From an uncultured Flavobacteriales bacterium (GTDB lineage: Bacteria; Bacteroidota; Bacteroidia; Flavobacteriales_D; Sanyastnellaceae), in assembly GCA_938074325.1 (NCBI GenBank), contig CALJFZ010000011.1, positions 61,161-125,160 of the forward strand: 64,000 nt of DNA, given 5' to 3'. The translations under genes and the position numbers were made by a program. This document shows, piece after piece, positions 1,033 through 63,050 of this stretch. The notes beneath the pieces are model-generated. The model had not been told where the DNA came from. It did no database searches and worked only from the letters and a program-made list of their open reading frames with translations. The number at the start of each line of letters is the position of its first letter. Positions within the stretch are counted from its first letter, which is position 1.

Positions 1033-1102
1033 GACCTTATTGATTTCAGTGTTCGACCTGTTTCAACAAATGTACGAGATGTACAGGGCGTACCTTTGCG
1101 TC

Positions 1103-1885
1103 ATGCAGGTGGAATTCACTTTTCTCGGAACGGGCACGTCTCAAGGCGTTCCCATCATCGGGTGCGATTGCCCGGTTTGCCGAAGCTCAGATCCGCGAGA
1201 CCAGCGGCTAAGAAGCTCCCTGCTCGTGCACACTGGTGATGCCACGGTGGTCATTGATACTGGTCCGGATTTCCGGCAACAATGCCTCCGCGAGTCAGTC
1301 AAAAGCATTGACGCGGTTGTTTTTACGCATGAACACAAAGACCATGTGGCTGGATTGGATGATATCCGACCCTTCAATTTCCGCAGCAAGAAGGACATGC
1401 CTGTTTTTGCTACTGAACGCGTGGAGCAAGCCTTACACCGCGAATTTCAGTACATCTTCGAGGCCAATTACCCCGGGGTTCCAAAGGTGGCATTGAATCG
1501 GATAGATGAAGCTCCCTTTACCATTGGAGAGGCAACGTGGTGGCCGCTTCCTGTGCTCCATCATCGGCTCCCTGTTTTGGGGTTCCGTGTAGGAGGATTG
1601 GGTTACATCACGGATGCCAATTCATTTTCGGACCAAGCGCTTGAACGATTGGAGGGCGTGGATGTCCTCGTTTTAAATGCGCTGCGCAGGGAGTCGCACC
1701 TTTCGCATTTCACCTTGGAGGAAGCGTTGGAATGGGCCAAGCGGATTGGTGCGCGCCAAACGTATTTCACGCACATCAGCCATCAACTGGGCTTTCACGA
1801 GGAGGTAAGTGCTGAATTGCCTCCAGGGGTTTCCCTCGCGTTTGACGGATTGTCTGGAATGACCGAGGGCAGGGGGCTCGATTGA
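1103..1885 (+). CDS. MBL-fold metallo-hydrolase (PhnP-like phosphodiesterase family)
   Basis: MQVEFTFLGTGTSQGVPIIGCDCPVC..., THEHKDHVAGLDD motif; -7 box TACCTTTG at 1091-1098. Confidence 0.85.
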   Translation: MQVEFTFLGTGTSQGVPIIGCDCPVCRSSDPRDQRLRSSLLVHTGDATVVIDTGPDFRQQCLRESVKSIDAVVFTHEHKDHVAGLDDIRPFNFRSKKDMPVFATERVEQALHREFQYIFEANYPGVPKVALNRIDEAPFTIGEATWWPLPVLHHRLPVLGFRVGGLGYITDANSFSDQALERLEGVDVLVLNALRRESHLSHFTLEEALEWAKRIGARQTYFTHISHQLGFHEEVSAELPPGVSLAFDGLSGMTEGRGLD

Positions 1886-1902
1886 CATATTTTCGCGGCA
1901 TC

Positions 1903-2814
1903 ATGTCCCTGTTATTTCTTCGTCTTCTTTCTCGCCTTCCATTCAGCGTTTTGCACAGCATCAGTTCGTTGGTGGCGATTCTGGCTTCACGGCTGGTGGG
2001 ATACCGCCGCCTGGTCATTCGCGGCAACATCGAGCGAAGCTTCCCCGAGCTTTCAATGGCCGACCACCGCAGGATTGAGCGCGACTATTATCGCCATTTT
2101 GCGGACATCACATTGGAATCCATTAAGAATTTCACCATCAGTGATGCGGGGGCAAGGGCCCGTATGGAGCACCGCGGAGTCGAAGTCTTTGAGCAGTTCA
2201 AGCAAGAAGGCCGAAGCGTGTTGATTGCAGGAGGACATTTCAATAACTGGGAATTGTACGCCATGACGGCGAATCAGAGCATCCCACATGATGCGATGGC
2301 GGTGTACAAGCGGCTTTCGAATCCAACGATGGATGAGGAAGTTCGCGCTTCTCGTCAGCGTTTTGGACTGGAGATGGTGCGCACCGTTGATGCCCAAGCT
2401 TGGATGGATGAACATGCACAGGGTTTGCGACCGAAGGCCGTGGTGATGGGGTTTGATCAAAGTCCGGCTGACCCCCAGAAATCCTGGTGGAACACCTTTC
2501 TCAACCAGGAAACGGCTTGGTATTTCGGGCTGGAGAAATGGGCCCGGATGTACAACCTGCCGGTCATCTACGGGCACATTCGTAAGGTCAAGCGAGGCGT
2601 GTACTTCACGGAATATGAACTCGTGACGGATGCACCGCTCACCTTGCCCGAAGGCGCGATCCTTCAGCGCTGCATCGACTTGCTTGAGCAGGACATCCGC
2701 GAAACGCCCCATCAGTGGTTGTGGTCACACAAACGATGGAAGCACGCACGCCCGGAAACCATGCTATTGAACCGGCGTCCAGAAGGCCCGATAAATCCGA
2801 GTGCCCATGCATGA
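1903..2814 (+). CDS. Lysophospholipid / lipid A biosynthesis acyltransferase (LpxL/HtrB family)
   Basis: GGHFNNWE catalytic region and MGFDQSP; length about 300 aa. Confidence 0.85.
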   Translation: MSLLFLRLLSRLPFSVLHSISSLVAILASRLVGYRRLVIRGNIERSFPELSMADHRRIERDYYRHFADITLESIKNFTISDAGARARMEHRGVEVFEQFKQEGRSVLIAGGHFNNWELYAMTANQSIPHDAMAVYKRLSNPTMDEEVRASRQRFGLEMVRTVDAQAWMDEHAQGLRPKAVVMGFDQSPADPQKSWWNTFLNQETAWYFGLEKWARMYNLPVIYGHIRKVKRGVYFTEYELVTDAPLTLPEGAILQRCIDLLEQDIRETPHQWLWSHKRWKHARPETMLLNRRPEGPINPSAHA

Positions 2815-4081
2815 AGTTCCATTGGCCGAGCGCATGCGCCCCAAGACATTGGGGGATTATTTGGGTCAAGGCCACTTGGTCGGTGAAGACCAAGTTTTGC
2901 GCCGTTCCGTCGAAGGGGGCAATGTGCCGTCCATGATTTTATGGGGGCCTCCAGGTGTCGGAAAAACCACCCTCGCCAAAATCATTGCAGCGCAATCCGG
3001 CCGTCCTTTTCACGAGCTCTCGGCCGTTCAAAGCGGCGTAAAAGAGGTGAGGGAGATCATAGCAAGCGTCAAACGTTCAGGGATGTTTGCCGGCCGAGCC
3101 ATTCTCTTCATTGATGAGATTCACCGATTCTCAAAGTCCCAGCAAGACAGTTTGTTGGGTGCTGTAGAACAGGGCCTTGTCACGCTCATTGGTGCGACAA
3201 CGGAGAACCCGTCATTTGAGGTGATTCCGGCGTTAATAAGCAGGTGTCAAGTATATGTCTTAAAGTCATTTAGTGAAGAACAATTAAAGCTAATTGTAAC
3301 CCGTGCGATTCAGCAAGATGAAGTGCTTTCCATGCGTTCCATCGAGGTAGCGGAATGGGAAGCTTTGTTTCGAGCGAGTGGCGGAGACGCGCGCAGGTTG
3401 CTCAATGCTGTGGAATTGCTGGTGGGGCTTTCTGAGGGCGATCAAGTGGTCATCGACAACGCTGCTGTCAAGTCCGCTTTGCAGTCTACCACCGTGCGAT
3501 TCGATAAGAAGGGAGATACGCATTACGACATTGCATCGGCCTTGATCAAAAGCATTCGAGGGAGCGACCCGAACGCGGCCGTCTATTACTTGGCTCGGAT
3601 GCTTGCCGGGGGCGAAGACCCCAAGTTCATTGCGCGCCGCCTGGTGATATCGGCTGCTGAAGATATTGGCTTGGCCAATCCCACAGCCTTGGTTATGGCG
3701 AATGAAACCTTTGCAGCCATCGAACGCATAGGTATGCCCGAGGGCCGCATCGTATTGAGTCAATGCGTCATCTACTTGGCCACAAGTCCCAAAAGCAATG
3801 CCGCCTACGCCGCAATCAATCAAGCCATGCGTGCAGTAGAAGCGACCGGTGATCTGCCCGTGCCCCTGCATTTGCGAAATGCATCCAATCAATTCATGAA
3901 GGATCAAGGCTACGGCAAGGGCTACCAATACGACCACGAATCCGAGCAAGGGGCGTCCGGTCAGGAATTCCTCCCGCAGGGAATTGAAGGCAGTTCTTTT
4001 TACCTGCCAGGGGCCAATTCCAAAGAGGCAGGTATCCGTGCAGCTATGAAGGCCGTATGGAAGGATAAGTACAATTTCTGA
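2807..4081 (+). CDS. rarA: Replication-associated recombination protein A (AAA+ ATPase)
   Basis: PLAERMRPKTLGDYLGQGHL, WGPPGVGKTTLA, LFIDEIHRFSKSQQD, GATTENPSFEV. Confidence 0.95.
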   Translation: MHEVPLAERMRPKTLGDYLGQGHLVGEDQVLRRSVEGGNVPSMILWGPPGVGKTTLAKIIAAQSGRPFHELSAVQSGVKEVREIIASVKRSGMFAGRAILFIDEIHRFSKSQQDSLLGAVEQGLVTLIGATTENPSFEVIPALISRCQVYVLKSFSEEQLKLIVTRAIQQDEVLSMRSIEVAEWEALFRASGGDARRLLNAVELLVGLSEGDQVVIDNAAVKSALQSTTVRFDKKGDTHYDIASALIKSIRGSDPNAAVYYLARMLAGGEDPKFIARRLVISAAEDIGLANPTALVMANETFAAIERIGMPEGRIVLSQCVIYLATSPKSNAAYAAINQAMRAVEATGDLPVPLHLRNASNQFMKDQGYGKGYQYDHESEQGASGQEFLPQGIEGSSFYLPGANSKEAGIRAAMKAVWKDKYNF

Positions 4082-4092
4082 CCTAGTTCGGT

Positions 4093-5805: not shown

Positions 5806-6902
5806 TGCTTTTCAGATGACTGGAGTACGCCATTTTCATAGCGTTCAATCAAGATGAGTCGGCCGTTGAGGTCGTAATTGTAGACTTCGCCGTCGAGCTT
5901 GCCATCCACGTATTCGCCTTCCCGTTTCAGCGCCTCGCCTTCGAGGATGCGTTTGCGGATGGTGTCTCCGGTTTCCGGATCGATGGAGGCCTCAATGACC
6001 CATTCGCCGGTGTCGTGCCATTCGCGGAATGGGCCGGTCTTTTGTTGGTTGATGACTTCGAATTCTTCCTTAGGTCGACCGTCGTTGAAGGTCATGACGA
6101 CCGATCCATTCTCATGGATTTCTTCGATGAGTTCACCTTGCTCAAATTGCCGAGTGGTTTGCACCGTGCCGTCCTCCATGAATGACTTCCAGAAGCCGTT
6201 CTCCTTGCCAGCGTCGTATAAGCCCAAGGTCTGAGGTCGGCCATTGGCATAGTTGATTTTGCACATGCCGTGAAACACCCCCTCGCGGTAATTGATCTCA
6301 GAAAGCAGGGTCCCCAGTTCATCCCACGTTTTCCAGGTGCCATCGCGTTCGCCGTTCTTGTAGTTGCCCTGTTCCAGGCGTTTGTTGTTTTTGCTGTACG
6401 TCACCGATGTTCCGTGGAGGAGGTCAGCGTTGTAATTCTCCTTCAGCCGCAAAAGCCCGGCTGCATCGTAATAGAGCCATTCGCCTTGTTTTAATCGGAC
6501 GGGCTCTCCTTGTTCGTTCAATTGCCGACCGGTCATGTACAGGCCCTCCGCTTGCAGTGAACCGTCGGGGCGGTACAATTTGGTAAACGCCTTGCGGCCG
6601 TTTTCGATGTGGGTGACCTCCGACATCAATTCACCGTCTTCGTAGAAGAATTTGAAGGCTCCACTGGGTTGGCCGTTTTTGAATTGGCCCACGTAGTAAA
6701 GGTTGCCGTTGGGCCAAACCCGGATCCAAGCACCGTCTTTGTTGTTCTTTGCGTTGTTGAGGTTGAAGTCAATGCCTGCTTGACCTGCAGGATAATTTCC
6801 ACCCGTTGGTGTGCCGGGTTGAGCCAACACGTCGTGGGATGTGACAGTTGCAAGCAAAAGGACCGCAAAGGCGGAGAGAAAAGGAGTAGCGCTGCGCATC
6901 AT
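5802..6902 (-). CDS. MORN/YwqK-like repeat protein, secreted
   Basis: Repeated NGxxxGxWKxWxExGxL units; signal peptide MMRSATPFLSAFAVLLLATVTSHDVLAQ. Confidence 0.8.
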   Translation of the reverse strand: MMRSATPFLSAFAVLLLATVTSHDVLAQPGTPTGGNYPAGQAGIDFNLNNAKNNKDGAWIRVWPNGNLYYVGQFKNGQPSGAFKFFYEDGELMSEVTHIENGRKAFTKLYRPDGSLQAEGLYMTGRQLNEQGEPVRLKQGEWLYYDAAGLLRLKENYNADLLHGTSVTYSKNNKRLEQGNYKNGERDGTWKTWDELGTLLSEINYREGVFHGMCKINYANGRPQTLGLYDAGKENGFWKSFMEDGTVQTTRQFEQGELIEEIHENGSVVMTFNDGRPKEEFEVINQQKTGPFREWHDTGEWVIEASIDPETGDTIRKRILEGEALKREGEYVDGKLDGEVYNYDLNGRLILIERYENGVLQSSEKQ

Positions 6903-7036
6903 GAAAGCGAAAATAGTCAATTGGAAAGTGGCTCCACTTGGATTAACGACCAATGCCTCGCGATTTGTACACGTTCCATGGACACAGGCATTTCATTGCC
7001 TACTTTTGCACTCCCAATCACCATTATTTCAATACC

Positions 7037-8014: not shown

Positions 8015-10291
8015 TTACTGTACAACAACCCGCACGGCCTGTGTTTCATGGTCCGCTGCGGGTTGTGTCGTTAAGACGTAAATCCCCGGCAAGGAAGGAG
8101 CGCGGAGGACGGGTGCGTCGTACTGCAAAATCCGGGCGGTATAGAGGGTTCTTCCTTGGAGATCTGTCCAGATAAACTCGCTGTCCCTTTGCCCCGTCCA
8201 TCCGGAAAGGGCCACTGTAGATCCACATGGTACAGGGTTGGGAAACACGCCCATCGACGGAGATGTACTCCATTCAGTAACATGGACCGCGGTACCCTGG
8301 AACCAGCGCAATCCTCCGTTCTGGATTCCAACCAGCATTTCGGGGAGGCCATCGTTATTGACGTCGCCCAGGGTCCCACTGGATCGCAGTCCGCGCATGG
8401 CCGCATTCCAGATGCCATCCCATTCCTCCAATGGTCCGAGAATGTCGGCAGTATTCAGCGTCCCGAAATACTGGATTTCGCCCAATTCGTTGCCTGCCGC
8501 AACGTGAATGACGTCGCCTGCTTTGTACAAGCATGGGGTGGCGTATCCGTTGATGCCCAATGCATTGTGGACTTGAATGCCGCCCCAATTTTCGCCGTTC
8601 GTCTCCGTGGTCTGCATGCACCAGGCCGCATTTTGTGCTGTGCCACAATTCAGAAACAAGGTGAAGGTGCCGTTTTTTTCACCGACCACGAGATCGAGCA
8701 AACCGTCGTTGTCCACATCCATCAATTGGGGGGAAGCAAACTGGCCGATGTCCATGCTTTCTCCTTGTGCATCTGAAAGGGAGAGTTGAGCCAGTTCCCA
8801 CACTGGCCATGCGCCGGGCCCTGCAACGTTGTCATAGCGATGCATGAGGCCCAATTCATCTCCGACCACCAGATCCACATCGCCGTCGCCGTCCAGGTCG
8901 CCCAATGCTGGAAAGGCACTTTCTATCCCGTTGGTCGCAAAATCAATGGACGACCACGTGTTCCATGCAAACGCCGGTGCCTCGGCATCGCCCGTGTTTT
9001 CGAACAAAGCGAGCGCCGTGGGGGTGTCATTGACGCCTTCGTACCGTTCCTTGTTACCAACCACCAAGTCCAGGTCGCCATCGCCGTCGAGGTCGTGCAA
9101 CACGGGGATGGCTCCGCGCCCTACGTCAATGGTGCCGTCTTGGATCCAATGGTCCGATGCCAATGCCCAAACCGGCGTTTCGACGGTGCCTTGGTTTTCC
9201 CATAATTGCACGCATTGGTCGTCGTTGATTTCCAGGCCGATGTTCGGTGAAATGACCAAGTCCCAATCCCCGTCATTGTCCGGGTCAATGGGGTAGGCCG
9301 CTGGAAAGCGCTCGAGGGAAATGGAGTCCTGTGGACCGGCGTGCGGAACCAAGGCTGGAAATGCCATGTCCACCCAGGCGGTGCTGTCTTGGCCGTCGTC
9401 GGCATCCTCAAGCATCAACCCACTCATGGTGGGGTAGGTGACGTCGGAGATGAGCAGGTCGTGGAAATTTTCCCCGTCCATTTGCAGCGCCGTGATCGCT
9501 CCGCCGGCATGAACGCCATCGCGCTCCGCAGGCACCTCGCCAATCGGCGCGGGTCGGCCCTCTGGATCGACGACATTGAAGCTGCAGCTGTGGTCTTCTC
9601 CGATGAACAAGGTGTTGTCTTCGGATCCTTCTGAAACCATTCCGTAGCAGCGATTGGTGCAGACTAAGTCCAGCCCACAGGACGATTGGCCGGAAAAACG
9701 ATAGAGGGATGTGCTGGTCTCCGTGAAACAAATGAAGTCGAGGTCGCCATCGTTGTCAACGTCAAAAATGGCCGGTTTGTCAATGGTGAGGCAGACGAGG
9801 GGCAGCTCCTGTGCGCCTGTACCGAAGTCCCAACTGGCCGTCAATGGAATCGCGTACGGTTCGAATTCGGGCACACCCGTCCCGGTGCCAATGTTGCGGT
9901 AGACGTGTATGCTGTTTTGGTAGCCGGTGAAGAGGTCGGGACGATCGTCGCAATCAAAGTCCCGCAGCAGCACCCAATGCTTGACAGCGGGCCATCCCTC
10001 TGCCCAATCCGGACGCTCTTTCCATGTCCCGTCTTCCGTGTGCTCGAACACCAGAATGCGGCTGCCATCTCGGTCAAAGGTGAAGAGGTCTTGGTCGCCG
10101 TCGCCGTCCATGTCGATTTCCGACCACTGCGGAGCGCTCATCCCGCCGGTGAAGGCATGCGGCAGGTCGGTACCGTACAAATTGACCGTTGGCCCAGACG
10201 TCAATTCCCAGTTCCACGGCGCTTGTGCGGCACCAAGGGCGGGGAGAAGTGCACTGAAAAAACTCAGGATGACGGCAGGTTTCAATTTCAT
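8015..10291 (-). CDS. FG-GAP/VCBS-repeat T9SS-secreted protein
   Basis: Multiple DxDGDGDxDL repeats; signal peptide; C-terminal VFPNPVPCGSTVALSGW. Confidence 0.88.
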   Translation of the reverse strand: MKLKPAVILSFFSALLPALGAAQAPWNWELTSGPTVNLYGTDLPHAFTGGMSAPQWSEIDMDGDGDQDLFTFDRDGSRILVFEHTEDGTWKERPDWAEGWPAVKHWVLLRDFDCDDRPDLFTGYQNSIHVYRNIGTGTGVPEFEPYAIPLTASWDFGTGAQELPLVCLTIDKPAIFDVDNDGDLDFICFTETSTSLYRFSGQSSCGLDLVCTNRCYGMVSEGSEDNTLFIGEDHSCSFNVVDPEGRPAPIGEVPAERDGVHAGGAITALQMDGENFHDLLISDVTYPTMSGLMLEDADDGQDSTAWVDMAFPALVPHAGPQDSISLERFPAAYPIDPDNDGDWDLVISPNIGLEINDDQCVQLWENQGTVETPVWALASDHWIQDGTIDVGRGAIPVLHDLDGDGDLDLVVGNKERYEGVNDTPTALALFENTGDAEAPAFAWNTWSSIDFATNGIESAFPALGDLDGDGDVDLVVGDELGLMHRYDNVAGPGAWPVWELAQLSLSDAQGESMDIGQFASPQLMDVDNDGLLDLVVGEKNGTFTLFLNCGTAQNAAWCMQTTETNGENWGGIQVHNALGINGYATPCLYKAGDVIHVAAGNELGEIQYFGTLNTADILGPLEEWDGIWNAAMRGLRSSGTLGDVNNDGLPEMLVGIQNGGLRWFQGTAVHVTEWSTSPSMGVFPNPVPCGSTVALSGWTGQRDSEFIWTDLQGRTLYTARILQYDAPVLRAPSLPGIYVLTTQPAADHETQAVRVVVQ

Positions 10292-10372
10292 GTGGGCAAG
10301 TTATCGGATTCTTGTTGATTACTTATTCGCTGCTGGGAAAACCCTCCCGTTGAGAGCGGGGTATGTTTAGGC

Positions 10373-12435: not shown

Positions 12436-12464
12436 TATTCGAGGCTGAGGGATACCTTTGGGGC

Positions 12465-13166
12465 ATGCGGTTTTTTTACGCACCCATCGTCTCACCACTG
12501 CACGAATTGGATCCTGATGAGTCCAAGCACTTGGTGCGCGTTCTGCGTGCCCAAGTCGGCGATGAAGTGGGGTTAGTAGATGGCAAGGGGAACCGTTACC
12601 GTGGAAACCTGACGCAAGTGGACAAACGCGCTTGCCTGTTGGAGACTTCACTGGTCGAGTCCCAACCTGAACCAACCCATTCCTTGACCTTGGTCATTGC
12701 TCCAACCAAGAGCACCGACCGGTTCGAATGGTTGCTGGAAAAAGCCATGGAATACGGTGTTCGCCGCGTTCAGCCGATTTGGACGGCTCGGAGTGAGCGG
12801 AAAAAGGAAAAGACGGACCGGTGGGAGAAGATTTTGGTCAATGCGCTCAAGCAATCGCAGCAACTTTGGCTGACGGAACTTGCCCCCGCTGTATCCTGGG
12901 AAGTGTGGCTGGCTTCTGAAGGGGCCAAGGGAGCATCGGGTTTCATCGCCCATTGTGAGCCGGCCGAGAAGCTTCACCTGTTTGACGCTTTCCCTACGGA
13001 TGCGTCCAGTTGGGTGGCGATCGGCCCTGAAGGGGATTTCACGACGAATGAAATTGCATTGGCTCGTTCAAAGGGTGTACAAGAAGTGACCCTCGGAGAC
13101 CAGCGTTTGCGTACCGAGACAGCTGGTTTGGCGGCGATACAAATGCACGCCCTGGTGCAGCGGTAG
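12465..13166 (+). CDS. rsmE: 16S rRNA (uracil(1498)-N(3))-methyltransferase
   Basis: HLVRVLRAQVGDEVGLVDGKG, IGPEGDFTTNEI, LGDQRLRTETAGLAAI. Confidence 0.93.
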   Translation: MRFFYAPIVSPLHELDPDESKHLVRVLRAQVGDEVGLVDGKGNRYRGNLTQVDKRACLLETSLVESQPEPTHSLTLVIAPTKSTDRFEWLLEKAMEYGVRRVQPIWTARSERKKEKTDRWEKILVNALKQSQQLWLTELAPAVSWEVWLASEGAKGASGFIAHCEPAEKLHLFDAFPTDASSWVAIGPEGDFTTNEIALARSKGVQEVTLGDQRLRTETAGLAAIQMHALVQR

Positions 13167-18847: not shown

Positions 18848-18895
18848 GCATCAAATGTACGCGTTGTGGAGGCCTCCCTTGAGTACTTTTGTCCC

Positions 18896-19333
18896 ATGGC
18901 GGTTGACATCAAAAACAAGAAGGCATCGTATACGTACTTCCTGACGGATCATTTTACCGCCGGCATCCAGTTGGTCGGGTCTGAGATTAAGTCAATTCGC
19001 GGAGGCAAAGCGAGCATTGGAGAAGCGTATTGCCGATTCAATGGGGGAGAATTTTTTGTGTACAACATGTACATCGCCGAATACCCGAACGCCGGTTACA
19101 CTCCGCATGAGGTTCGCCGGCCGCGGAAACTGCTGTTGCAAAAAACAGAGCTGAAAAAGTTGGAGCGCCGCCTGAAAGATGTGGGGGTCACCGTGGTGCC
19201 TGTGCGGATGTTCATCGCCGCGAGTGGCTATGCAAAGGTTGAAATTGCCGTGGCTAAAGGAAAGAAGCTGCACGATAAGCGTGCTTCGCTCAAAGAAAAG
19301 GACCAAGCCCGCGACCTGGATCGCATGTCATAA
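18896..19333 (+). CDS. smpB: SsrA-binding protein
   Basis: GIQLVGSEIKSIRGGKASIGEAYCRF, NPY-like YNMYIAEYP, KGKKLHDKRASLKEKDQARDLDR. Confidence 0.95.
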   Translation: MAVDIKNKKASYTYFLTDHFTAGIQLVGSEIKSIRGGKASIGEAYCRFNGGEFFVYNMYIAEYPNAGYTPHEVRRPRKLLLQKTELKKLERRLKDVGVTVVPVRMFIAASGYAKVEIAVAKGKKLHDKRASLKEKDQARDLDRMS

Positions 19334-19900: not shown

Positions 19901-20010
19901 CGTTGGGAATCAAATCTATCCCTTGGATGTATGCTTACGAAGGGGGGCGGTTCCTGCGCTATCCACAGTTTTTTCCACAGGCAACGCGTGAATCGCATTA
20001 ATTTCGCGGC

Positions 20011-21039
20011 ATGTACCAAATGCTCAAACCACTCATTTTCAAGTTACAACCTGAAAAGGCACACGAATGGACCATGTCGTTATTGGTCATGGCTTGCTCA
20101 ATTCCGGGTGTAGGTGCGTTGTTGCGGGCCTTTTATTCTGTGAAATCGGAGGTGTTGGAAGTTGAAGTTGCTGGATTGAAATTTCCCAATCCTGTCGGGT
20201 TGGCGGCGGGGTTTGACAAAGACGCGAAGTGGTTGAAGCAGATGCGGGTTTTGGGTTTTGGGTTCGTCGAGATTGGAACCATTACGCCCTTGCCGCAGGA
20301 CGGCAATCCCCAACCGCGTTTGTTTCGATTGCCCGAGGACAAAGGCATTATCAATCGGATGGGATTCAACAACTCCGGAATGGTGGCAGCAGCGAGTCGG
20401 CTGCGTCGTCGGCCCGATGGCTTGATCGTAGGAGGCAACATCGGTAAGAATAAAATCACCCCAAACGCTGAGGCAGAGTCCGATTACGTGAAGTGTTTCA
20501 ACGCCCTGTACGATTATGTGGATTATTTCGTGGTGAACGTGAGCTCTCCCAACACGCCGGGCCTCCGGGAATTGCAAGAGAAGGAGCCGTTGCAGCGGTT
20601 GCTGGAGACCCTCATGACGGAGAACGGTCGACGCGACGTTCAGCGACCCATTTTTCTGAAAATTGCGCCGGACCTCACCGATGATCAGCTCGATGACATT
20701 GTTGATTTGGTTCAAGCAGCGGGAATTGCAGGAGTCATCGCAACGAACACCACCATCTCACGGGAAGGCCTGAAGACACCTGCGTCGGATGTGGAGCGCA
20801 TGGGTGCTGGCGGTCTGAGCGGAGCTCCGGTGCGAGAGCGGTCGACCGAGGTCATCAAGTACCTGCACAGCAAATCAAATGGGGCATTTCCCATCATCGG
20901 GGTTGGCGGCATTTGCAACGCGGAGGATGCGAAAGAGAAATTGGACGCAGGAGCAAGTTTGGTCCAGGTCTATTCCGGTTTGATCCACGAAGGACCTGCC
21001 TTGGTGAAACGAATCAACCGCGGCTTGCTCGCCGGGTAA
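20011..21039 (+). CDS. pyrD: Dihydroorotate dehydrogenase (quinone)
   Basis: [48 protein letters not shown]. Confidence 0.95.
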
Positions 21040-21921: not shown

Positions 21922-22641
21922 TTAGGGTAGAAGCAAAGCGCAGGCCATGGCAACCATGAGAAGGTCTTCGATGATGGTGACGGTGCTCATCGGCAGGTTG
22001 AATACAGTGCCCAGGCAAGCGCATTGGATGTGTTGCTTCTGGGACACGGCGAGGATGACGCCAATGGCACTAAATCCCATCAATACCACCGTGCTCAATG
22101 CGACAGCAAACGTACCGCCCCAAAAAGCCCAAGCCAACCCCAGTCCCAATTCCAGAAATGGATAGGCATATCCGTAGGCGGGGAGGGCTTTGGCCAGCAG
22201 GTCATACGAACGATAGCTCGTGGCAAACCCTTGGATGTCCAAGAATTTGAAGAATGAGAAGACCAAGAAGAATCCGCCCATGAATGCTTCCATCCAAGTG
22301 GTCATGGTGCCATCGGTCTTCCAACAGATTCCCGTGGCGACAGCTGAAACGAACAGTCCGATGAGGATCAACGGCCAGTAGGTGCGCCAATGAACCGGCT
22401 TCAATTTTGGCGAAGACGGGGCAGAGAAGTCAGGTGCATCACTTACCGCATATTTCGGGTAAGGGGCAAGCGCCATCGCGGCCTCGTCTCGCAAAATTGC
22501 CCGCTCGGCTTGGAGAGCGGCAACCTTGGAATCCAGGTTGATTTCAACGGCTGATACCCCTTCGATTTGCTGAAGCGTGTGGGAGACTTTAGCGGCACAT
22601 CCGCTGCACGTCATTCCATCAATTTTAAACGTGGATTTCAT
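21922..22641 (-). CDS. HMA domain fused to MauE/DoxX-like membrane protein
   Basis: N-terminal MKSTFKIDGMTCSGCAAKVSHTLQQIEGV followed by hydrophobic MauE/DoxX-type helices. Confidence 0.82.
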   Translation of the reverse strand: MKSTFKIDGMTCSGCAAKVSHTLQQIEGVSAVEINLDSKVAALQAERAILRDEAAMALAPYPKYAVSDAPDFSAPSSPKLKPVHWRTYWPLILIGLFVSAVATGICWKTDGTMTTWMEAFMGGFFLVFSFFKFLDIQGFATSYRSYDLLAKALPAYGYAYPFLELGLGLAWAFWGGTFAVALSTVVLMGFSAIGVILAVSQKQHIQCACLGTVFNLPMSTVTIIEDLLMVAMACALLLP

Positions 22642-22718
22642 GCAGCGAAGTTAGCAGTTTGGCAGTGAAAGACATCCCATTGAAGCCTATTTTTGCACTG
22701 CACAAAATCACCTAGGAA

Positions 22719-26508: not shown

Positions 26509-27612
26509 TTATTTATCGATATTTTTTTGAGTCATCTCCTCGTTCTGCACGCGGATGCTCTCTTTGTGCACCTGTTCGAGGTATGTGGCAATGAACTCGG
26601 GTCCCAAACCGGCTGCTTTTGCCCAATCCCCTCGTGTCTCAAATACCTCCTTCCAACGACTCATCTGAAGAATGGTCATGCCGTGGCTCTTTTTGTATTG
26701 CCCAATTTCTCGGGCCAGTGTCATGCGCGCTTGAAGCAATTCAATGACCTGTTCATCGATTGAATCCATTTGCAAGCGCAATGCATCCAAGCTGGCGGAG
26801 TCCTGAGGACCGCGATGAATGTCCCGGATGGCGAGTCGCTGGAGAAGCGCACCGAATTCAGTAGGAGTGATTTGTTGATCGGCGTCACTGAGCGCCTCAC
26901 TTGGACGGCAATGGCTCTCGATCATTAAGCCATGCATTCCTAGGTCCATGGCTTTTTGGGCAACCGGCTCCAGTAAGTCTGGGCGGCCCGCGATGTGACT
27001 GGGGTCGCAGATAATCTTCAATTCGGGTTTTGCCATTTGCAAGGCAATGGCAATTTCCCACATCGGGGCGTTGCGGTATTCCTGTTGTCCATAGCGGCTG
27101 AACCCCCGGTGAATGGCCCAAACAGGTCCGTTGGTTGCTTTTTGCACGCGTTCAATCGCTCCCATCCAAAGGGGCAAGTCCGCATGCATAGGGTTTTTGA
27201 CCATTATAGGTAAGGATGTACCCTTGAGTGCGTCTGCGATTTCTTGGACGGCAAAAGGGCTTACCGTGGTGCGAGCACCAATCCACAAAACATCAATTCC
27301 GGCTTTCAAGCAGGCCTCTACGTGTTCTTTGTTGGCGACTTCGGTGGCAACCGGGATTCCGGTCTCTGCTCGCGCTTGAACCAGCCATTCCAACGCTTCG
27401 ATACCCATCCCTTCGAACGCATCGGGTCGAGTGCGTGGTTTCCAAATGCCTGCACGCAGCAAGTGCACTCCTTTTTCTTTCAGCGCAACGGCCGTCTCCA
27501 AGACTTGGTCTTGAGATTCGGCACTGCATGGTCCGCTGATCAAAAAGGGGCGTTGGACACCATGGATATTCATGGTGTTGTGCGGCGAGCCAATGGGGTT
27601 GTTCGTTACCAC
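26509..27612 (-). CDS. Bifunctional 3-deoxy-7-phosphoheptulonate synthase / chorismate mutase type II
   Basis: ISGPCSAESQDQVLETA, IWKPRTRPDAFEGMG, CDPSHIAGRPDLL; C-terminal CM domain LDALRLQMDSIDEQVIELLQARM. GTG 27612 preferred from promoter geometry; ATG 27615 is the alternative. Confidence 0.92.
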   Translation of the reverse strand: MVTNNPIGSPHNTMNIHGVQRPFLISGPCSAESQDQVLETAVALKEKGVHLLRAGIWKPRTRPDAFEGMGIEALEWLVQARAETGIPVATEVANKEHVEACLKAGIDVLWIGARTTVSPFAVQEIADALKGTSLPIMVKNPMHADLPLWMGAIERVQKATNGPVWAIHRGFSRYGQQEYRNAPMWEIAIALQMAKPELKIICDPSHIAGRPDLLEPVAQKAMDLGMHGLMIESHCRPSEALSDADQQITPTEFGALLQRLAIRDIHRGPQDSASLDALRLQMDSIDEQVIELLQARMTLAREIGQYKKSHGMTILQMSRWKEVFETRGDWAKAAGLGPEFIATYLEQVHKESIRVQNEEMTQKNIDK

Positions 27613-27699
27613 CATGCAAAGATACAGACCTTGTACCCGCAATTGGTGCTTCTGTGGATTTGAATACGTGTGTTTCTGTCACGCCTCCACAGATGGCGT

Positions 27700-32528: not shown

Positions 32529-33020
32529 TTAAACCGCTTCTGCCTCGGGTGTCAAATCAGGAGCGCCGTGCAGCGCATGGGATCCACCTTCTTCGTCAAG
32601 GGGGAAAACCTCAGTAATTTTTTGGAAGACAATGGAGGGGATGACAAACCCAACACCCACCGTGGACATGTGTTTCCGGACTTTGTCGAAAGCATCGCGG
32701 ACGTCGGTTGCTGAGAGCAGAATGTGCTGGTACGATTCTTTCTCTTTCCCGGCTTTTTCGTCCAACGAGGTGAGCGCAATTTTCACCTTGAACCACTGAT
32801 CGGCATCATCAAATCGAATGACCTCCACCAGGTTTGATTTGGTAATCTGCACAATTTCAAACGGGCGAATGCCTTCCTGCTCACAGATGCCGGTCATGCG
32901 CGACTCCGCTTCGGTGTAATTGTATGCGTCGAGTACGAAGGATTCTGTGGCCTTGACTTCTGCGCCTTCGGCATCGTGTCGAACGTATTTGACCTTGCAG
33001 GTGAACCAGTGTTTTGTCAT
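32529..33020 (-). CDS. DUF4494 domain-containing protein
   Basis: MTKHWFTCKVKYVRHDAEGAEVKATESFVLDAYNYTEAESRM. Confidence 0.82.
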   Translation of the reverse strand: MTKHWFTCKVKYVRHDAEGAEVKATESFVLDAYNYTEAESRMTGICEQEGIRPFEIVQITKSNLVEVIRFDDADQWFKVKIALTSLDEKAGKEKESYQHILLSATDVRDAFDKVRKHMSTVGVGFVIPSIVFQKITEVFPLDEEGGSHALHGAPDLTPEAEAV

Positions 33021-33146
33021 GGGGCAAAATTATGGTTGGCCTCGCGGGTAGTTCGGATATGATGCGCTTGTTCGATGAACATTTCATTCACAAAGGCGCA
33101 ATTCACAATGGACCTTCAATAACGCACGCCAGGCGATGAATCCGGC

Positions 33147-34444: not shown

Positions 34445-35100
34445 CAGCCGTTGGCCTTGGCGTGATCGGCCAAGAACTGGGCCAATCCGTTGTCGGTCAA
34501 TGGGTGCTTCAACAAGCCCTTCATGGCACTCAGCGGTCCGGTCATGATGTCCGCACCGATTTCAGCGCATTCGATGATGTGCATGGTGTGGCGCACACTG
34601 GCCGCGAGGATTTCCGTACCAAAATCGTAGTTGTCATAAATGACACGAATCTTCTCAATCAACTGCAAGCCATCCGAACTGATATCGTCGATTCGGCCTA
34701 CAAACGGGCTGACGTAAGATGCTCCTGCCTTCGCTGCGAGCAACGCCTGTCCTGGTGAGAAGATCAGCGTGCAGTTGGTGCGGATGCCGTTGTCTGTAAA
34801 CCAACGAATTGCACGGATACCATCAGCAATGGCCGGAACCTTCACGACGATGTTGGGGTGAAGGGCAGCGAGGGCCTGTCCTTCTTCGATCATGCCTTCA
34901 AAATCCGTAGCGATGACTTCCGCGCTGACGTCGCCGTCAACGATTTCGCAAATGGCCTTGTAGTGGGCTTTTACGGCTTCGTCTCCAGTGATGCCTTCTT
35001 TGGCCATCAGGGAAGGATTGGTGGTTACTCCGTCTAGTACGCCGAGTGCTTCGGCTTCACGGATTTGGTCGAGGTTGGCGGTGTCGATGAAGAATTTCAT
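34444..35100 (-). CDS. fsa: Fructose-6-phosphate aldolase / transaldolase-like
   Basis: MKFFIDTANLDQIREAEALGVLDGVTTNPSLMAKEG, VVKVPAIADGIRAI. Confidence 0.92.
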   Translation of the reverse strand: MKFFIDTANLDQIREAEALGVLDGVTTNPSLMAKEGITGDEAVKAHYKAICEIVDGDVSAEVIATDFEGMIEEGQALAALHPNIVVKVPAIADGIRAIRWFTDNGIRTNCTLIFSPGQALLAAKAGASYVSPFVGRIDDISSDGLQLIEKIRVIYDNYDFGTEILAASVRHTMHIIECAEIGADIMTGPLSAMKGLLKHPLTDNGLAQFLADHAKANG

Positions 35101-35172
35101 GGCGCGAAAGTAGCACATCCCTGTGGTTTGCTCGGCCATGTTGGGGGTTGTATCTTGATAAAAAACAAGGAC

Positions 35173-40818: not shown

Positions 40819-42270
40819 TCAAAGTTCCATTGTTTTTTCGAATACTCCAACCGCTTCGACGTGCGCTGTGTGGGGGAATTGGTCAACAAGCGTGAGTTTC
40901 TGCAGGGCATATCCGTATTCGGCCAAAGTGGCTATGTCCCGTGCTTGGGTCGCAGGGTTGCACGAAACGTAGACGAGTCGCTTGGCTTGAAGGCGGATGA
41001 CCTTGCGCAGGGTCTTGGGTGAAATGCCTGCCCGAGGTGGGTCGAGAACGATGGTGTTGATTTTTCCGGTGTACTCGGGATACTCAAGCAGGAATTTTCC
41101 CACGTCTGCTGCGTGGAATTCGACCCCTTCAATTCCATTTTGTTCGGCGCTGCGTCGGGCATCGAGGATGGCTCGCTCAACAATGTCCACACCGACGACC
41201 TTGCGGTTGGAGGCACGTGCTAGCAATTGGCCAATGGTCCCCGTTCCGCAGAACAGATCCATGACAATTCCGTCTTCCTCGTTCGTCATGTGCGACGTGG
41301 CTTCTTTGACGGTCATTTCGTACAAACGCTCCGCGCTGGCGGGGTTGGTTTGGAAGAAACTCGCCATCTCCACATCGAAGTTCAAACCGTGCAATGTCTC
41401 GGTAACAAAAGGGTCTCCGTAAATGCACGTGCTCGCGCCTGCCCGTGCTTCGACGCGCTCACCTTTGTCGTCATTGATGGTATGCAATACCCCTTGCAGC
41501 CGGTCGCCAAAAAGGGTGCGCAACTGCTGGACGAATTGGTCTCTTGAAAACCGTTCGAGGTCGTCTGACGTCGTAACCAAATTCACCAGGATGCGCTGAG
41601 AGGCAATGCTTTTTCGGACAACTAAGAAGCGAAAGAAGCCTTCCCTTCGGGGTGGATGCCACGCTGGTAACCCCGTCGATTCAAACCACTTTCGCAGTTC
41701 TGGCATGGCATTTTCGACATTGGCGTCAAAAAGGCCTGAATCGCCTTCCAAATCTTCCACCGCCCACCACGTTCCGCGCCGCTTGAATCCCAGACCAAAC
41801 CGGTCTTCCTTTTCTCCCGTCGCGGGGTTGTGTACAATGGCCGAGAAGCTGTACTCCATCTTGTTCCGGTAATGCCATTGTTCGGGGGAAGCCACTAACC
41901 CTTGGTACACCCGATCGATGTCTTCCACCTGCCCGATCCGTCGGTACAAATCCAATGCGGTTTGCTCCTTGTGCCGGTGTTGGTGTTCGATGGGCAGGTG
42001 CGCGTACGGTGCACCGGGGATTTCTTGGTACGGAATGTCCACCTCCTCAGGAGCCCGTGCGACGACGTCTTCTAGCTTGCACTCGGCATACTTGGACTTG
42101 CATTTGACCACACGTGCGGTGACGCGTTGGCCGGGCAGGGCATTCTGAACGAAGATGACGAACGGACCGCGTTCTGTTTCCTGCCGGGCAATGCCTTTGC
42201 CTCCAAACGCAATGTCTTGGATGTCAAGCGTCAGCAGCTGGTTTTTGTGGAATAGTCGTTGGCGTCGCAC
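40819..42270 (-). CDS. rlmD: 23S rRNA (uracil(1939)-C(5))-methyltransferase RlmD-like
   Basis: TRAM-like N-terminus, VMDLFCGTGTIGQLLA, TIVLDPPRAGISPK, VYVSCNPATQARD; GTG 42270 start proposed (the ORF track extends to 42357). Confidence 0.9.
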   Translation of the reverse strand: MRRQRLFHKNQLLTLDIQDIAFGGKGIARQETERGPFVIFVQNALPGQRVTARVVKCKSKYAECKLEDVVARAPEEVDIPYQEIPGAPYAHLPIEHQHRHKEQTALDLYRRIGQVEDIDRVYQGLVASPEQWHYRNKMEYSFSAIVHNPATGEKEDRFGLGFKRRGTWWAVEDLEGDSGLFDANVENAMPELRKWFESTGLPAWHPPRREGFFRFLVVRKSIASQRILVNLVTTSDDLERFSRDQFVQQLRTLFGDRLQGVLHTINDDKGERVEARAGASTCIYGDPFVTETLHGLNFDVEMASFFQTNPASAERLYEMTVKEATSHMTNEEDGIVMDLFCGTGTIGQLLARASNRKVVGVDIVERAILDARRSAEQNGIEGVEFHAADVGKFLLEYPEYTGKINTIVLDPPRAGISPKTLRKVIRLQAKRLVYVSCNPATQARDIATLAEYGYALQKLTLVDQFPHTAHVEAVGVFEKTMEL

Positions 42271-42310
42271 GGGGGCAAAAGTACGCTGTTCAAGGCTGTA
42301 TCTTGCGTGC

Positions 42311-43171
42311 ATGCGACGGATGTCCAACTTTTTATTGGCCTTGGGCCTTGTGACCATTTTCGGAACGCTGCCTCAATTGGCAAGGGGCCAGAGAGCTGCT
42401 GAACTTTCCGTGTGCACGTTCAACGTTCGCTATGACAATCCCTCGGACACCATCACGTGGCTCGAGCGGCGGGAAGAGGTGGCTCAAGCGGTGCGGTATT
42501 TCGATGTCGTCGGCGTGCAAGAAGCCCTTCCGAATCAGTACGCGGATCTGCAACAGCGCATGCCCAACCACGCGGCTTTCGGGGTGGGGAGAGATGCAGA
42601 TGGTGGAGGAGAGGCTTGCCCAATTTTCTGGAATACCGAACGCTTTGATTTCTTAACCGGTGAAACCCGGTGGTTATCCCTTGAGCCCGCCAGACCTGGC
42701 AGTGTTGGGTGGGATGCAGACTTGCCCCGAATTGCAACGGTCGTGGTTCTTTTCGATCGAATGCGTCAGCAAACCGTGCGGGTGGTGAACACCCATTGGT
42801 CGCACGTTGGAGAGGAAGCGCGCATGCACGCTGCGGCCTTGCTTGCGGGATGGTGCGGTTGGGATGAAGCTGACGGAAATGAATTGGTACTGGTCTGCGG
42901 GGATATGAATGCGGAGCCTACCTCTGATCCCGTCCAGAGCTTGATGGCGGCCGCGGAGTTGACAGATACATACGAAGCTGCGAAGTACCGCTGCCGGAAG
43001 GAGTTTGGGACATACGCGACGTTTCTTCCGCAAAACTTGGCCAATTCTACCCGCATCGATTACATCCTCTTTCGAGGAGATGTTCAGGTCGATTGGGCCT
43101 GTGCGGATGAAATCATCAAGTACGGCGTCTACATCTCGGATCACATGCCGTACCACGCGATTTTTAAATGA
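42311..43171 (+). CDS. Endonuclease/exonuclease/phosphatase family protein
   Basis: LSVCTFNVRYDNPSDTITW, VVGVQEAL, VVNTHWSHVGEEARMHAA, CGDMNAEP, ISDHMPYHA. Confidence 0.92.
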   Translation: MRRMSNFLLALGLVTIFGTLPQLARGQRAAELSVCTFNVRYDNPSDTITWLERREEVAQAVRYFDVVGVQEALPNQYADLQQRMPNHAAFGVGRDADGGGEACPIFWNTERFDFLTGETRWLSLEPARPGSVGWDADLPRIATVVVLFDRMRQQTVRVVNTHWSHVGEEARMHAAALLAGWCGWDEADGNELVLVCGDMNAEPTSDPVQSLMAAAELTDTYEAAKYRCRKEFGTYATFLPQNLANSTRIDYILFRGDVQVDWACADEIIKYGVYISDHMPYHAIFK

Positions 43172-44586
43172 TGCGAACGAAGGCCATCGCTCAAGCAGCG
43201 GGTCCGGTTGCTGCCCTTTTGGTGTGGTTCCTGGCCTCAGCGCAAGGTCTTCCCGAACCGGCAAGCCGCGTGCTTGCTGCAGCCGCGTGGATGCTGGTGT
43301 GGTGGATTGCTGAAGCGGTACCCATCGGGGTGACCTCCGTTTTGCCCATGGTGCTCTTCCCGTTGCTAGGGGTGGCGGGCATAGCTGAGACCACGGCCCC
43401 GTATGGGTCGCATTACGTGTTCCTGTTCATGGGGGGCTTTTTGATTGCCCTTGCGTTGGAGAAATGGAACCTGCACAAGCGATTTGCCCTTTCTGTTCTG
43501 GTATTGGCTGGAGGCCGTCCGCGCCGCTTGATTGCAGGGTTTATGCTGTCCACTGCCGCACTGAGCATGTGGATTTCGAATACGGCTACCACCTTGATGA
43601 TGCTGCCCATTGCTTTGTCTGTGTTGCACAAGGTGGACGTCGCGCATCATCCCAAGTTTGGCTTGGCCTTGCTCTTGGGCACAGCGTATGCAGCGAATTT
43701 GGGCGGCATCGCTACCCTCATTGGTACACCGCCCAATGTGGCGATGGCTGGAGTCTTGGAGGAGCAGTTTGATGTCGTTGTTCCATTCTTTGAGTGGACA
43801 TGGATGGCGTTGCCGTTTTCCATTACCATGCTGATCGTGGTGTTTGTATTGCTCACGCGTGTTCTCACTCCTGTTTCGAACGAAACGCTTGAAGGAGGCC
43901 AAAGTGAAATTCGGGATGAGTTGCAGGCATTGGGTGCTTGGAGCGCCTCAGAAAAAAGGGTGGCGGTGGTGTTCGCCCTGACCGCCCTGCTGTGGATAGG
44001 ACGGAGGTGGCTGGTGTCGTGGACCGGCATTCCGCTGAATGATACGACGATTGCCATGGGTGCAGGCCTGTCCTTGTTCCTGATTCGGAGCCATGCCGAA
44101 GGCGCCCTTCTGGCGTGGAGGGACACCCGCAATTTGCCTTGGGATATTTTGCTGCTTTTTGGAGGCGGTTTGACGCTGGCCAATGCATTGGGAGAAGCTG
44201 ATGTGTTGAAAATGGTTGCTGAAGCATTGGCAGGATGGGATGGCATTAGCAGAGGAGCGCTGGTGCTGGTCTTTGCGGGTGTCGCCTTGCTCTTGACCGA
44301 AGTCATGAGCAATCTAGCATTGACCGTCGTTATGGTCCCTGTGGTTGGGCAAATTGCTATCCAATGGGGGATGAATCCTCTGCTCCTCGTCATCCCGGTA
44401 ACAATTGCCAGCAGTTGTGCCTTCATGTTGCCGATGGCGACCCCGCCCAATGCCATCATTTTCGGCAGCCAGCGCATTGGGATGAAGCAGATGGCTTCTG
44501 TCGGATTCGTGTTGAACGTAATTGCAGCCTTACTTGCTTGGTTCTGGGGGGTGTGGGTCTTGCCTGAGTGGTTGCAGTTCATCTAA
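43168..44586 (+). CDS. SLC13/DASS family sodium-coupled anion transporter
   Basis: ISNTATTLMMLPIALSV, IGTPPNVAMAG, CAFMLPMATPPNAIIFGS. Confidence 0.92.
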   Translation: MMRTKAIAQAAGPVAALLVWFLASAQGLPEPASRVLAAAAWMLVWWIAEAVPIGVTSVLPMVLFPLLGVAGIAETTAPYGSHYVFLFMGGFLIALALEKWNLHKRFALSVLVLAGGRPRRLIAGFMLSTAALSMWISNTATTLMMLPIALSVLHKVDVAHHPKFGLALLLGTAYAANLGGIATLIGTPPNVAMAGVLEEQFDVVVPFFEWTWMALPFSITMLIVVFVLLTRVLTPVSNETLEGGQSEIRDELQALGAWSASEKRVAVVFALTALLWIGRRWLVSWTGIPLNDTTIAMGAGLSLFLIRSHAEGALLAWRDTRNLPWDILLLFGGGLTLANALGEADVLKMVAEALAGWDGISRGALVLVFAGVALLLTEVMSNLALTVVMVPVVGQIAIQWGMNPLLLVIPVTIASSCAFMLPMATPPNAIIFGSQRIGMKQMASVGFVLNVIAALLAWFWGVWVLPEWLQFI

Positions 44587-44595
44587 CTTTGACAT

Positions 44596-45030
44596 GTGAA
44601 GCGCATCCTCATCCTCAACGGTCCCAATCTGAATTTGCTGGGTACACGCGAGCCCGGTATTTACGGCTCGGTAACCTTGGAATCCCTCGAGGGAAAATGG
44701 ATTGCATATGGCAAGGACCACGGAGTCGAAGTGACGTGTTTGCAGTCCAACATCGAGGGAGAGTTGGTTGACGCCCTTCAGGCTCATGGCTTTGATGCAG
44801 ACGCAATTCTCTTCAATCCGGGGGGGTATACCCACACCAGTGTGGCGTTGCGCGATGCCGTTGCGGCCATCACCTCCCCAGTCTATGAAGTACATATTTC
44901 CCATCCTGATGCGCGCGAAGAGTTTCGTAAAACCTCGCTGCTCCGTGAGGTTTGTGCTGGCAGTGTGAGCGGCCTGGGAGTTGCTGGGTACATGGCAGTC
45001 ATGGCTTCGCTGGTCAGTGTTGAACAATGA
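44596..45030 (+). CDS. aroQ: 3-dehydroquinate dehydratase, type II
   Basis: ILILNGPNLNLLGTREPGIYG, NPGGYTHTSVALRDA, EVHISHPDAREEFRKTS; GTG start. Confidence 0.96.
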   Translation: MKRILILNGPNLNLLGTREPGIYGSVTLESLEGKWIAYGKDHGVEVTCLQSNIEGELVDALQAHGFDADAILFNPGGYTHTSVALRDAVAAITSPVYEVHISHPDAREEFRKTSLLREVCAGSVSGLGVAGYMAVMASLVSVEQ

Positions 45031-58389: not shown

Positions 58390-58435
58390 GATGAGACAAA
58401 ATTAAGCTGTGAACGACTACATGGAGGCCGAGAAG

Positions 58436-58452
58436 TTTCCGAAAATTGGAAA
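58436..58452. promoter_or_regulatory. Candidate operator TTTCC-N7-GGAAA between divergent TonB receptor and His-rich gene
   Basis: TTTCCGAAAATTGGAAA, midway between two outward-facing -7 boxes (58397-58404 minus, 58473-58480 plus). Confidence 0.4.
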
Positions 58453-58484
58453 GTTGAAACGTTTTCTCACTCTACCTTTGCGGT

Positions 58485-58883
58485 GTGAAAAGTGGCCCTA
58501 CAAGCACCCAGCGAAATGCGTTTTTTGCCAGCACACTGTTGTGCGTTTGGGCGCTGGTCCTCGGACTGGAGGTGCACCACCAATTCGGTCACGTCATCTC
58601 AGGATGCACCCATCACCATCACCACGGACAAACTGAGCATCACCACCACGGCTGCAAGGAGTGGGGCGGTAGTCATGCCCAGGACCAATGGCGAAGTCAT
58701 GAGCACATGTGCACGCTGTGTGAATGGGATTTCTCGCCCTTATCTGCACCGACCAAAACGACTTGGGATAAGCAAGTTGTGCACCATGCAGTGCAGCCTT
58801 TGCTGGGCTGGACGCGAGCAGGTTTTGTCACCACAACGTGGCAGGCTGATTGGAGCCGCAGGGGGCCGCCGGAAAGCGCTTAA
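58485..58883 (+). CDS. His-rich exported protein
   Basis: GTG start; hydrophobic N-terminus; CTHHHHHGQTEHHHHGC and HEHMCTLCEWDFSP. Confidence 0.72.
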   Translation: MKSGPTSTQRNAFFASTLLCVWALVLGLEVHHQFGHVISGCTHHHHHGQTEHHHHGCKEWGGSHAQDQWRSHEHMCTLCEWDFSPLSAPTKTTWDKQVVHHAVQPLLGWTRAGFVTTTWQADWSRRGPPESA

Positions 58884-58925
58884 CGCCTTTCTTATTCTCC
58901 CCCTCCACAGACTCAAACCAATCAA

Positions 58926-61259: not shown

Positions 61260-61264
61260 AAAAC

Positions 61265-62071: not shown

Positions 62072-62092
62072 TATTCGGATTGTACGAAAACG

Positions 62093-62122
62093 AAAAGGGA
62101 GGCATTTGGCCTCCCTTTTTTT
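62093..62122 (+). terminator. Rho-independent terminator
   Basis: AAAAGGGAGGC-ATTTG-GCCTCCCTTTTTTT. Confidence 0.88.
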
Positions 62123-62165
62123 GTTCGTGATGAGCGTATTCAGTGAAGAGGTGGCTGAATCTTGC

Positions 62166-62477
62166 CTATGCTTCTGAGATGACTGATGCATAGGCACCAA
62201 CGTTGTATGCGTTTTGGATACCCTGAGATTTCAAAAAGGCAGCGGCTTGAGCCGAACGACTGCCAGCACGACAGTACAGAAAGTAGCTTTTTGATTTATC
62301 AAGTTCTCCAACATGTTCATGGGCTTCGCCACTGAGCCAATCCCATTGGATTGCATCGGGCCATATTCCGCCAGCACACTCTTCTTTGGTTCGACAATCG
62401 ATGACGATGCCATTGGTTTCGTTGAGTTTGGATTTGAACTCCTGTGGGGTAAGGTCGATTTGGGGGCGAAAAAACAT
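62166..62477 (-). CDS. Rhodanese-like domain protein
   Basis: NGIVIDCRTKEECAGG, YFLYCRAGSRSAQAAAFLKSQG. Confidence 0.9.
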   Translation of the reverse strand: MFFRPQIDLTPQEFKSKLNETNGIVIDCRTKEECAGGIWPDAIQWDWLSGEAHEHVGELDKSKSYFLYCRAGSRSAQAAAFLKSQGIQNAYNVGAYASVISEA

Positions 62478-62560
62478 GCTAGATCATTTAAAGTACAAGA
62501 TGGCGATTTCTTCCTGAGTCAAAAAATCGTTGAAATAGCGCTCAAGCATTAGCTTGCTGT

Positions 62561-62809
62561 ATGCAGCGCAACAATCGAACATCATGGTTCCGCAGCGGGG
62601 CCATCGGGTGCACGCTTATCGGAGCGGGACTATCTGTAACCTTGGATGCCCTCGCACAGCGATTGGGTGGAGCCGATTGGTGGATTTGGGCTACGGAGGG
62701 AACCGCAGGGTTGGTCGTCTTCATGGCTGGATTGGCTTTCTTCGGAGATGCTGTTCGGTACAGGGTCCACATGGACCGCGATGAGGAAGTATCAGGTGGC
62801 CGAAAGTAG
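62561..62809 (+). CDS. Hypothetical small membrane protein
   Basis: 82 aa with two hydrophobic segments. Confidence 0.55.
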   Translation: MQRNNRTSWFRSGAIGCTLIGAGLSVTLDALAQRLGGADWWIWATEGTAGLVVFMAGLAFFGDAVRYRVHMDRDEEVSGGRK

Positions 62810-63034
62810 GCCGTCAATTGCGCTCGCGAGTTGCCAATCTTTGTCCGTGATGATGGAACCCTCATCGTGCGTTGTGAGGCGCAGCTTGACCCGGCAGTAG
62901 GAATTGAATATTTCCGGGTGGTGATTATGGGATTCGGCCAAATCCGCTACTTCGTTCAGAAACGCCATCGCTGCACGGAACGACCTAAAGCGAAATTCAG
63001 CTTCCAGCGCACCTTGTGTTTCGACCCATTCCAT
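62792..63034 (-). CDS. phhB: 4a-hydroxytetrahydrobiopterin dehydratase
   Basis: FRSFRAAMAFLNEVADLAESHNHHPEIFNSYCRVKLRLTTHDEGSIITDKDWQLA. Confidence 0.9.
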   Translation of the reverse strand: MEWVETQGALEAEFRFRSFRAAMAFLNEVADLAESHNHHPEIFNSYCRVKLRLTTHDEGSIITDKDWQLASAIDGLLSAT

Positions 63035-63050
63035 GAAGCGAAACTAGGCG

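Follow-up and report, generated by a model that had tools for sequence, protein, structure and literature searches.

A −7 promoter box at a fixed distance from start codons predicts leaderless mRNAs for many genes of an uncultured Flavobacteriales bacterium

Promoters of the primary sigma factor of Bacteroidota, as described in Flavobacterium johnsoniae, F. psychrophilum and Bacteroides, have a −7 element of six fixed bases (TAnnTTTG) with almost no G at −10/−9, a weak or absent −33 element and an RpoD without region 1.1, and most of them lie there over 10 nt ahead of the start codon. The share of short leaders measured in the phylum ranges from a few percent to 13%: in B. thetaiotaomicron 3.7% of 5′ untranslated regions are below 10 nt in length, 5.5% of F. 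psychrophilum mRNAs are leaderless (PMC9723704), and 13% of F. johnsoniae leaders are ≤10 nt (PMC6847099). Leaderless mRNA was tested as the reason for the lack of Shine-Dalgarno (SD) sequences in Bacteroidota and dropped, the model species being mostly leadered (PMC6847099, PMC9723704, PMC7366714). Here we analysed a 64,000-nt stretch of DNA (the window; contig CALJFZ010000011.1, positions 61,161 to 125,160) from an uncultured Flavobacteriales bacterium of the family Sanyastnellaceae; it belongs to a metagenome-assembled genome of 2.15 Mb, and the same kind of box recurs in it exactly 4 nt before start codons. We write this spacing N4, and all offsets are given as the number of nucleotides between the end of the −7 box and the start codon. 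About half of the recognisable promoters of this genome lie 12–15 nt upstream, with +1 predicted on the start codon or at most 3 nt from it.

Zheng et al. searched with a Pribnow-type model, cautioning that promoters of other kinds would escape it, and reported leaderless genes for one Bacteroidetes/Chlorobi genome out of 37 (PMC3160421). From AT-rich biases, Nakagawa et al. proposed leaderless mRNAs and/or S1 as the solution used by the phylum (PMC5397173). Our search of the open-access PMC literature turned up no Bacteroidota lineage in which a −7 box had been reported to define a major leaderless class. The leaderless genes of Mycobacterium and other Actinobacteria (also Deinococcus-Thermus) are alike in having a −10/−7 box about 5–12 nt before the start, in starting with ATG or GTG but not TTG (PMC4633059 for mycobacteria) and in standing alongside a leadered class. 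They differ in the sigma box, and the present case belongs to a phylum without SD use, with an A-rich and SD-less leadered class and a leaderless translation that we infer.

All 14 box and start geometries listed in a preliminary description of the window were present as read from its sequence (Table 1), that at 42311 on the plus strand. TAnnTTTG occurs 27 times on the two strands of the window, 8 of these being listed N4 cases, and TAnnTTYG occurs 45 times, 12 of them listed; random placement with about 55 gene starts would give approximately 0.02 such cases, as the preliminary description had anticipated in calling the geometry rare by chance. The genome-wide scan for TAnnTTYG that it proposed covered stretches totalling 2.03 of the 2.15 Mb, in which 1544 genes were called with a hexamer model blind to the sequence upstream of the start. 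TAnnTTTG stood at offsets 3, 4, 5, 6 and 7 from 3, 39, 15, 8 and 4 of these blind starts, at 14 sites in total over offsets 8–15, and then formed a hump at 16–30. TAnnTTCG gave a profile of the same shape with 28 sites at offset 4, and the reversed-motif control was flat. When alternative starts close to the called ones were allowed, 109 genes had a box with a TTTG, TTCG or TTGC core (53, 42 and 14, respectively) at exactly N4, and the blind call agreed with the N4 start in 78 of them. TTCG is thus about as common as TTTG in this class, unlike in known Bacteroidota −7 promoters. The start codons were ATG in 91, GTG in 16 and TTG in 2, with ATG and GTG enriched and TTG at background level. ATG sites at offsets 3–7 numbered 16, 91, 32, 22 and 15, compared with a background of 6.4 per offset at offsets 31–40 (Poisson P = 3e−70 for N4), and 34 divergent genes carried an N4 box versus 0.24 in shuffled upstream regions. 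The idea of hidden small leaderless open reading frames (ORFs) was rejected, as ATG pattern hits apart from called genes stayed near the reversed-motif background.

One could object that the pattern arose by chance or by picking starts to fit the rule, and two window starts are indeed ambiguous, since an in-frame ATG adjoins the N4 GTG of the DAHP synthase gene and another lies upstream of the MBL gene at 1013. However, the peak stays when the start caller ignores upstream sequence, holds against shuffles and recurs in smpB and fsa, whose starts are set by the conserved protein, so that this objection is already refuted. The box-N4-start geometry is certain, both in the window and genome-wide.

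The box shares with the primary-sigma −7 element of Bacteroidota the six fixed bases and the avoidance of G, which was found at −10 in 8 and at −9 in none of the 109 N4 boxes. In F. johnsoniae this element extends from T−12 to G−5 and the transcription start site (TSS) lies 4 or 5 nt past the box (PMC6847099), and the F. psychrophilum element also lies at −12 to −5 (PMC9723704). Based on the F. johnsoniae register, N4 would make the first base of the start codon the +1 position. The primary sigma factor of the genome, an RpoD homologue of 289 aa, begins at region 1.2 and is without region 1.1, and appears to be of the sigma-ABfr type as that class has been described (PMC6847099). A search of 247 promoters for TTG at every spacing and for positional bias near −33 revealed no −33 element in either the leaderless or the leadered class. 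The earlier caveat that a −33 TTG is clear at only a few genes does not count as a weakness of the leaderless reading, because the element is missing from the leadered class too and is weak in F. johnsoniae as well (PMC6847099), so that its absence is not decisive.

Boxes at offsets 3–7 preceded 15–16% of divergent genes (65 of 442) and of genes that follow a 16–60 nt gap (34 of 216), compared with 13 of 400 genes (3%) located ≤15 nt from the preceding gene, indicating that the box marks transcription-unit starts rather than operon-internal genes. This distribution bears on the possibility that TAnnTTYG-N4-start is a translation-initiation signal, that is, a ribosome-binding or Kozak-like element of Bacteroidota acting on leadered mRNAs. 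A box position fixed relative to the start codon would be expected of such a signal, and Bacteroidota do use SD-less Kozak-like signals (PMC6847099). Operon-internal starts, however, need translation signals too and rarely have the box, and the known −7 element has the same fixed bases and likewise excludes G at −9.

Comparison of orthologous upstream regions, also suggested in the preliminary description, showed that the geometry is kept at starts while the surrounding bases diverge. The start of smpB is fixed by its conserved N-terminus, and among 30 family genomes about 24 carry its box at N4, GTG starts included, although nearly all bases other than the box and its N4 spacing differ among the 30 upstream regions. 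For fsa, box-N4-ATG was found in 8 close genomes (6 of the genus and 2 of a sister genus). Other family members mostly had the same kind of box at offsets 16–27 or 40–41; the strict box was not found in 4 of them, and none had a box at 8–15. Among 80 named Bacteroidota loci, fsa never had the box at N4 and had it 16–40 nt away in 24. That fsa occurs in both leaderless and leadered states argues for the box being the promoter, with its spacing to the start as the part that varies. Boxes 16–41 nt upstream of fsa orthologues, together with the genome-wide hump at 16–30, leave the translation-signal explanation very improbable.

The genes with N4 boxes thus very likely (probability about 0.86) make leaderless mRNAs, with the box serving as a −7 element of the sigma-ABfr class, and the genome-wide N4 peak, the orthologue conservation and the published TSS register support this interpretation, already put forward in the preliminary description, in silico. 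In the mechanism we propose, the −7 element of the primary sigma factor would be positioned in many genes so that its N4 spacer ends at the start codon, and RNA polymerase would start at the A or G of AUG/GUG to give an mRNA without a leader, which the ribosome would have to read from a 5′-terminal start codon. The box, its spacing, the bimodal offsets, the conservation and the sigma class come directly from the sequences, whereas the actual 5′ ends and translation from them are what we infer from these positions.

The offset profile is bimodal, with a peak at 4 that tails to 5–7, a trough near background at 8–15 and a broad hump at 16–30. ATG sites numbered 44 at offsets 8–15, close to background and corresponding to leaders of 4–11 nt, versus 117 at 16–23 (P = 8e−9). 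By the strict box, 131 genes were of the leaderless type and 148 of the leadered type, and the excess over background was 144 leaderless versus 96 leadered ATG sites. Roughly half of the recognisable promoters are thus predicted to be leaderless, an estimate confined to recognisable promoters, as two thirds of the divergent genes are without a strict box. In the second gene set the same box, at least 16 nt upstream, would produce leaders of about 12 nt or longer that are A-rich from −10 to −14; leadered and operon-internal genes share this A-rich segment, together with C at −1/−2. Weak mRNA structure at the start was not peculiar to leaderless genes. Avoidance of leaders of about 4–11 nt would create two discrete initiation modes, between which orthologous promoters such as those of fsa would switch in evolution. 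The two-mode idea with short-leader avoidance is well supported by the counts, which would then reflect selection against such leaders. We consider it fairly probable that the family has two start modes set by promoter position, leaderless (0–3 nt) and A-rich leadered (≥12 nt), with 4–11 nt counter-selected and genes hopping between modes.

Several points weigh against the leaderless reading. The box-to-TSS register is transferred from Flavobacterium, so the leaderless 5′ ends are predictions here, and the gene starts rest on our own caller. C at −1 was found in 85% of the N4 class but also at 55% of operon-internal starts; it is partly a translation feature, and we rejected it as a TSS signature. 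That GTG is preferred to TTG might stem from transcription favouring a purine at +1 and not from translation. Finally, 295 of 442 divergent genes had no assignable promoter under the strict box, so the true leaderless fraction is not fixed by the figure of about half.

We then counted TAnnTTYG-N4-ATG against a reversed control in other lineages; beyond the family, the comparisons consisted of such pattern counts, 120 kb of one genome and the 80 named fsa loci. The N4 excess was about 4-fold in the genus, at least 9-fold in two other genera of the family (g12 and g21) and about 2-fold in certain genera belonging to two further families of the order (f9 and f10). F. salilacus and Tenacibaculum showed no excess over control (95:120 and 139:127), most of the remaining phylum showed none either, and an N10 spacing control gave no excess comparable to N4. 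In 244 kb of a g12 genome (G083), box offsets from called starts peaked at 4 (10 sites) with few at 8–15, and 120 kb of an f9 genome (G088, genus g55) had no clear offset-4 peak. These counts address the possibility that the N4 class, though real and leaderless, is just the usual small leaderless share of Bacteroidota and does not exceed that of Flavobacterium or Bacteroides. The short leaders already known in the phylum, the 2-fold excess in other families and a small peak at offsets 4–5 in mixed named Bacteroidota loci would agree with that view, whereas the near parity of leaderless and leadered genes in this genome and the contrast between its genus and the two controls without excess speak against it, and we regard it as unlikely. 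Separately, three genomes of a family from another Bacteroidota class (G397, G401 and G409; f33) had a box-N4-ATG excess of about 3-fold over control, and this family is perhaps an independent leaderless lineage.

If the two-mode reading is true, leaderless initiation would be a major mode in a phylum reported almost wholly as leadered. For part of the phylum the question of SD lack is reopened by a lineage with leaderless mRNAs predicted from about half of its recognisable promoters. The fsa genes would offer natural leadered/leaderless orthologue pairs, and the trough makes a sharp prediction as to which leader lengths (about 4–11 nt) these ribosomes cannot use well. In such genomes the geometry can also serve as a practical guide to start calling, GTG starts included.

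Table 1 Boxes at short offsets from start codons in the window
Position	Strand	Box	Offset	Start codon	Gene or product	Basis and remarks
1091..1105	+	TACCTTTG (−7 box)	N4	ATG	MBL-fold hydrolase	Pfam Lactamase_B_2; start not certain
10289..10303	-	TAACTTGC (variant box, TAnnTTGC)	N4	ATG	FG-GAP repeat protein, start 10291	Pfam
12453..12467	+	TACCTTTG (−7 box)	N4	ATG	rsmE	Pfam PF04452
18845..18859	-	TACATTTG (−7 box)	N4	ATG	add (adenosine deaminase)	Pfam; divergent to smpB; opposed box also seen in genus mates
18884..18898	+	TACTTTTG (−7 box)	N4	ATG	smpB	Pfam; family orthologues
20000..20013	+	TAATTTCG (−7 box, 19999-20006)	N4	ATG	pyrD	Pfam
22639..22653	-	TAACTTCG (−7 box)	N4	ATG	HMA-MauE protein	Pfam
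27610..27624	-	TATCTTTG (−7 box)	N4	GTG	DAHP synthase/chorismate mutase	Pfam; in-frame ATG immediately precedes GTG
33018..33032	-	TAATTTTG (−7 box)	N4	ATG	DUF4494 protein	Pfam
35098..35112	-	TACTTTCG (−7 box)	N4	ATG	fsa/transaldolase	Pfam; orthologue comparison
42268..42283	-	TACTTTTG (−7 box)	N5	GTG	TRAM/tRNA-U5-methyltransferase-like protein, start 42270	Pfam; outside the earlier list; divergent to 42311, 40 nt between starts
42299..42313	+	TATCTTGC-GTGC-ATG (variant box, TAnnTTGC)	N4	ATG	endonuclease/exonuclease/phosphatase-family protein, start 42311	Pfam
44584..44598	+	TAACTTTG (−7 box)	N4	GTG	aroQ	Pfam DHquinase_II
58473..58487	+	TACCTTTG (−7 box)	N4	GTG	132-aa ORF at 58485 ('His-rich')	
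63032..63046	-	TAGTTTCG (−7 box)	N4	ATG	phhB (pterin-4a-carbinolamine dehydratase)	Pfam

Pfam backs the gene names given previously except for the 'His-rich' ORF, which had no Pfam or NCBIfam family match and is overlapped by a longer ORF in a different frame. Further unlisted boxes at short offsets lie in the window at 6902 (minus, N5), 10804 (plus, PEPCK, N3) and 50793 (plus, N6).

Variant boxes of the form TAnnTTGC peaked at N3–N4; of the 14 N4 genes that have one, two are in the window (at 10291 on the minus strand and at 42311 on the plus strand) and 12 in the rest of the genome. These boxes are similar to SM5 (TAnnTTGY) of F. psychrophilum, a motif attributed to an alternative sigma factor (PMC9723704), and occupy the same position relative to the predicted +1; they differ in being found at N3–N4 of starts. 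Leaderless promoters also occurred back to back in opposed orientation, at 42270 (minus) and 42311 (plus) of the window and at three places elsewhere in the genome (L106 10077/10101, L085 13836/13863 and L009 5155/5187), with 24–40 nt between start codons. The genome has about 15 divergent leaderless pairs with ≤115 nt between starts. In the back-to-back pairs the upstream promoter parts would have to fall inside the opposite gene, and two polymerases should exclude each other.

In a genus mate (G059, L263) the 3′ end of the 16S gene reads GGATTATCTCC instead of ..ACCTCC, and in two other family genera (G243 and G176) it ends in ..AACTCC. The anti-SD core has thus lost its first C (ATCTCC or AACTCC for ACCTCC) in three family genera and is intact in 8 other family genomes; the window's own assembly is without a 16S gene. 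A link between anti-SD decay and the leaderless class was rejected, as there was no association across lineages: decayed cores also occur in Chryseobacterium and in lineages without an N4 excess (G017 and G088), and intact ones in lineages with a strong N4 excess (G021 and G043). An extended SD is found on rpsU in many Flavobacteriales (PMC9976891). The rpsU gene here (bS21 by motif; L020 position 5997, plus) is leadered, with a TATTTTTG box 18 nt upstream and no extended SD, perhaps in keeping with the anti-SD decay seen in its genus.

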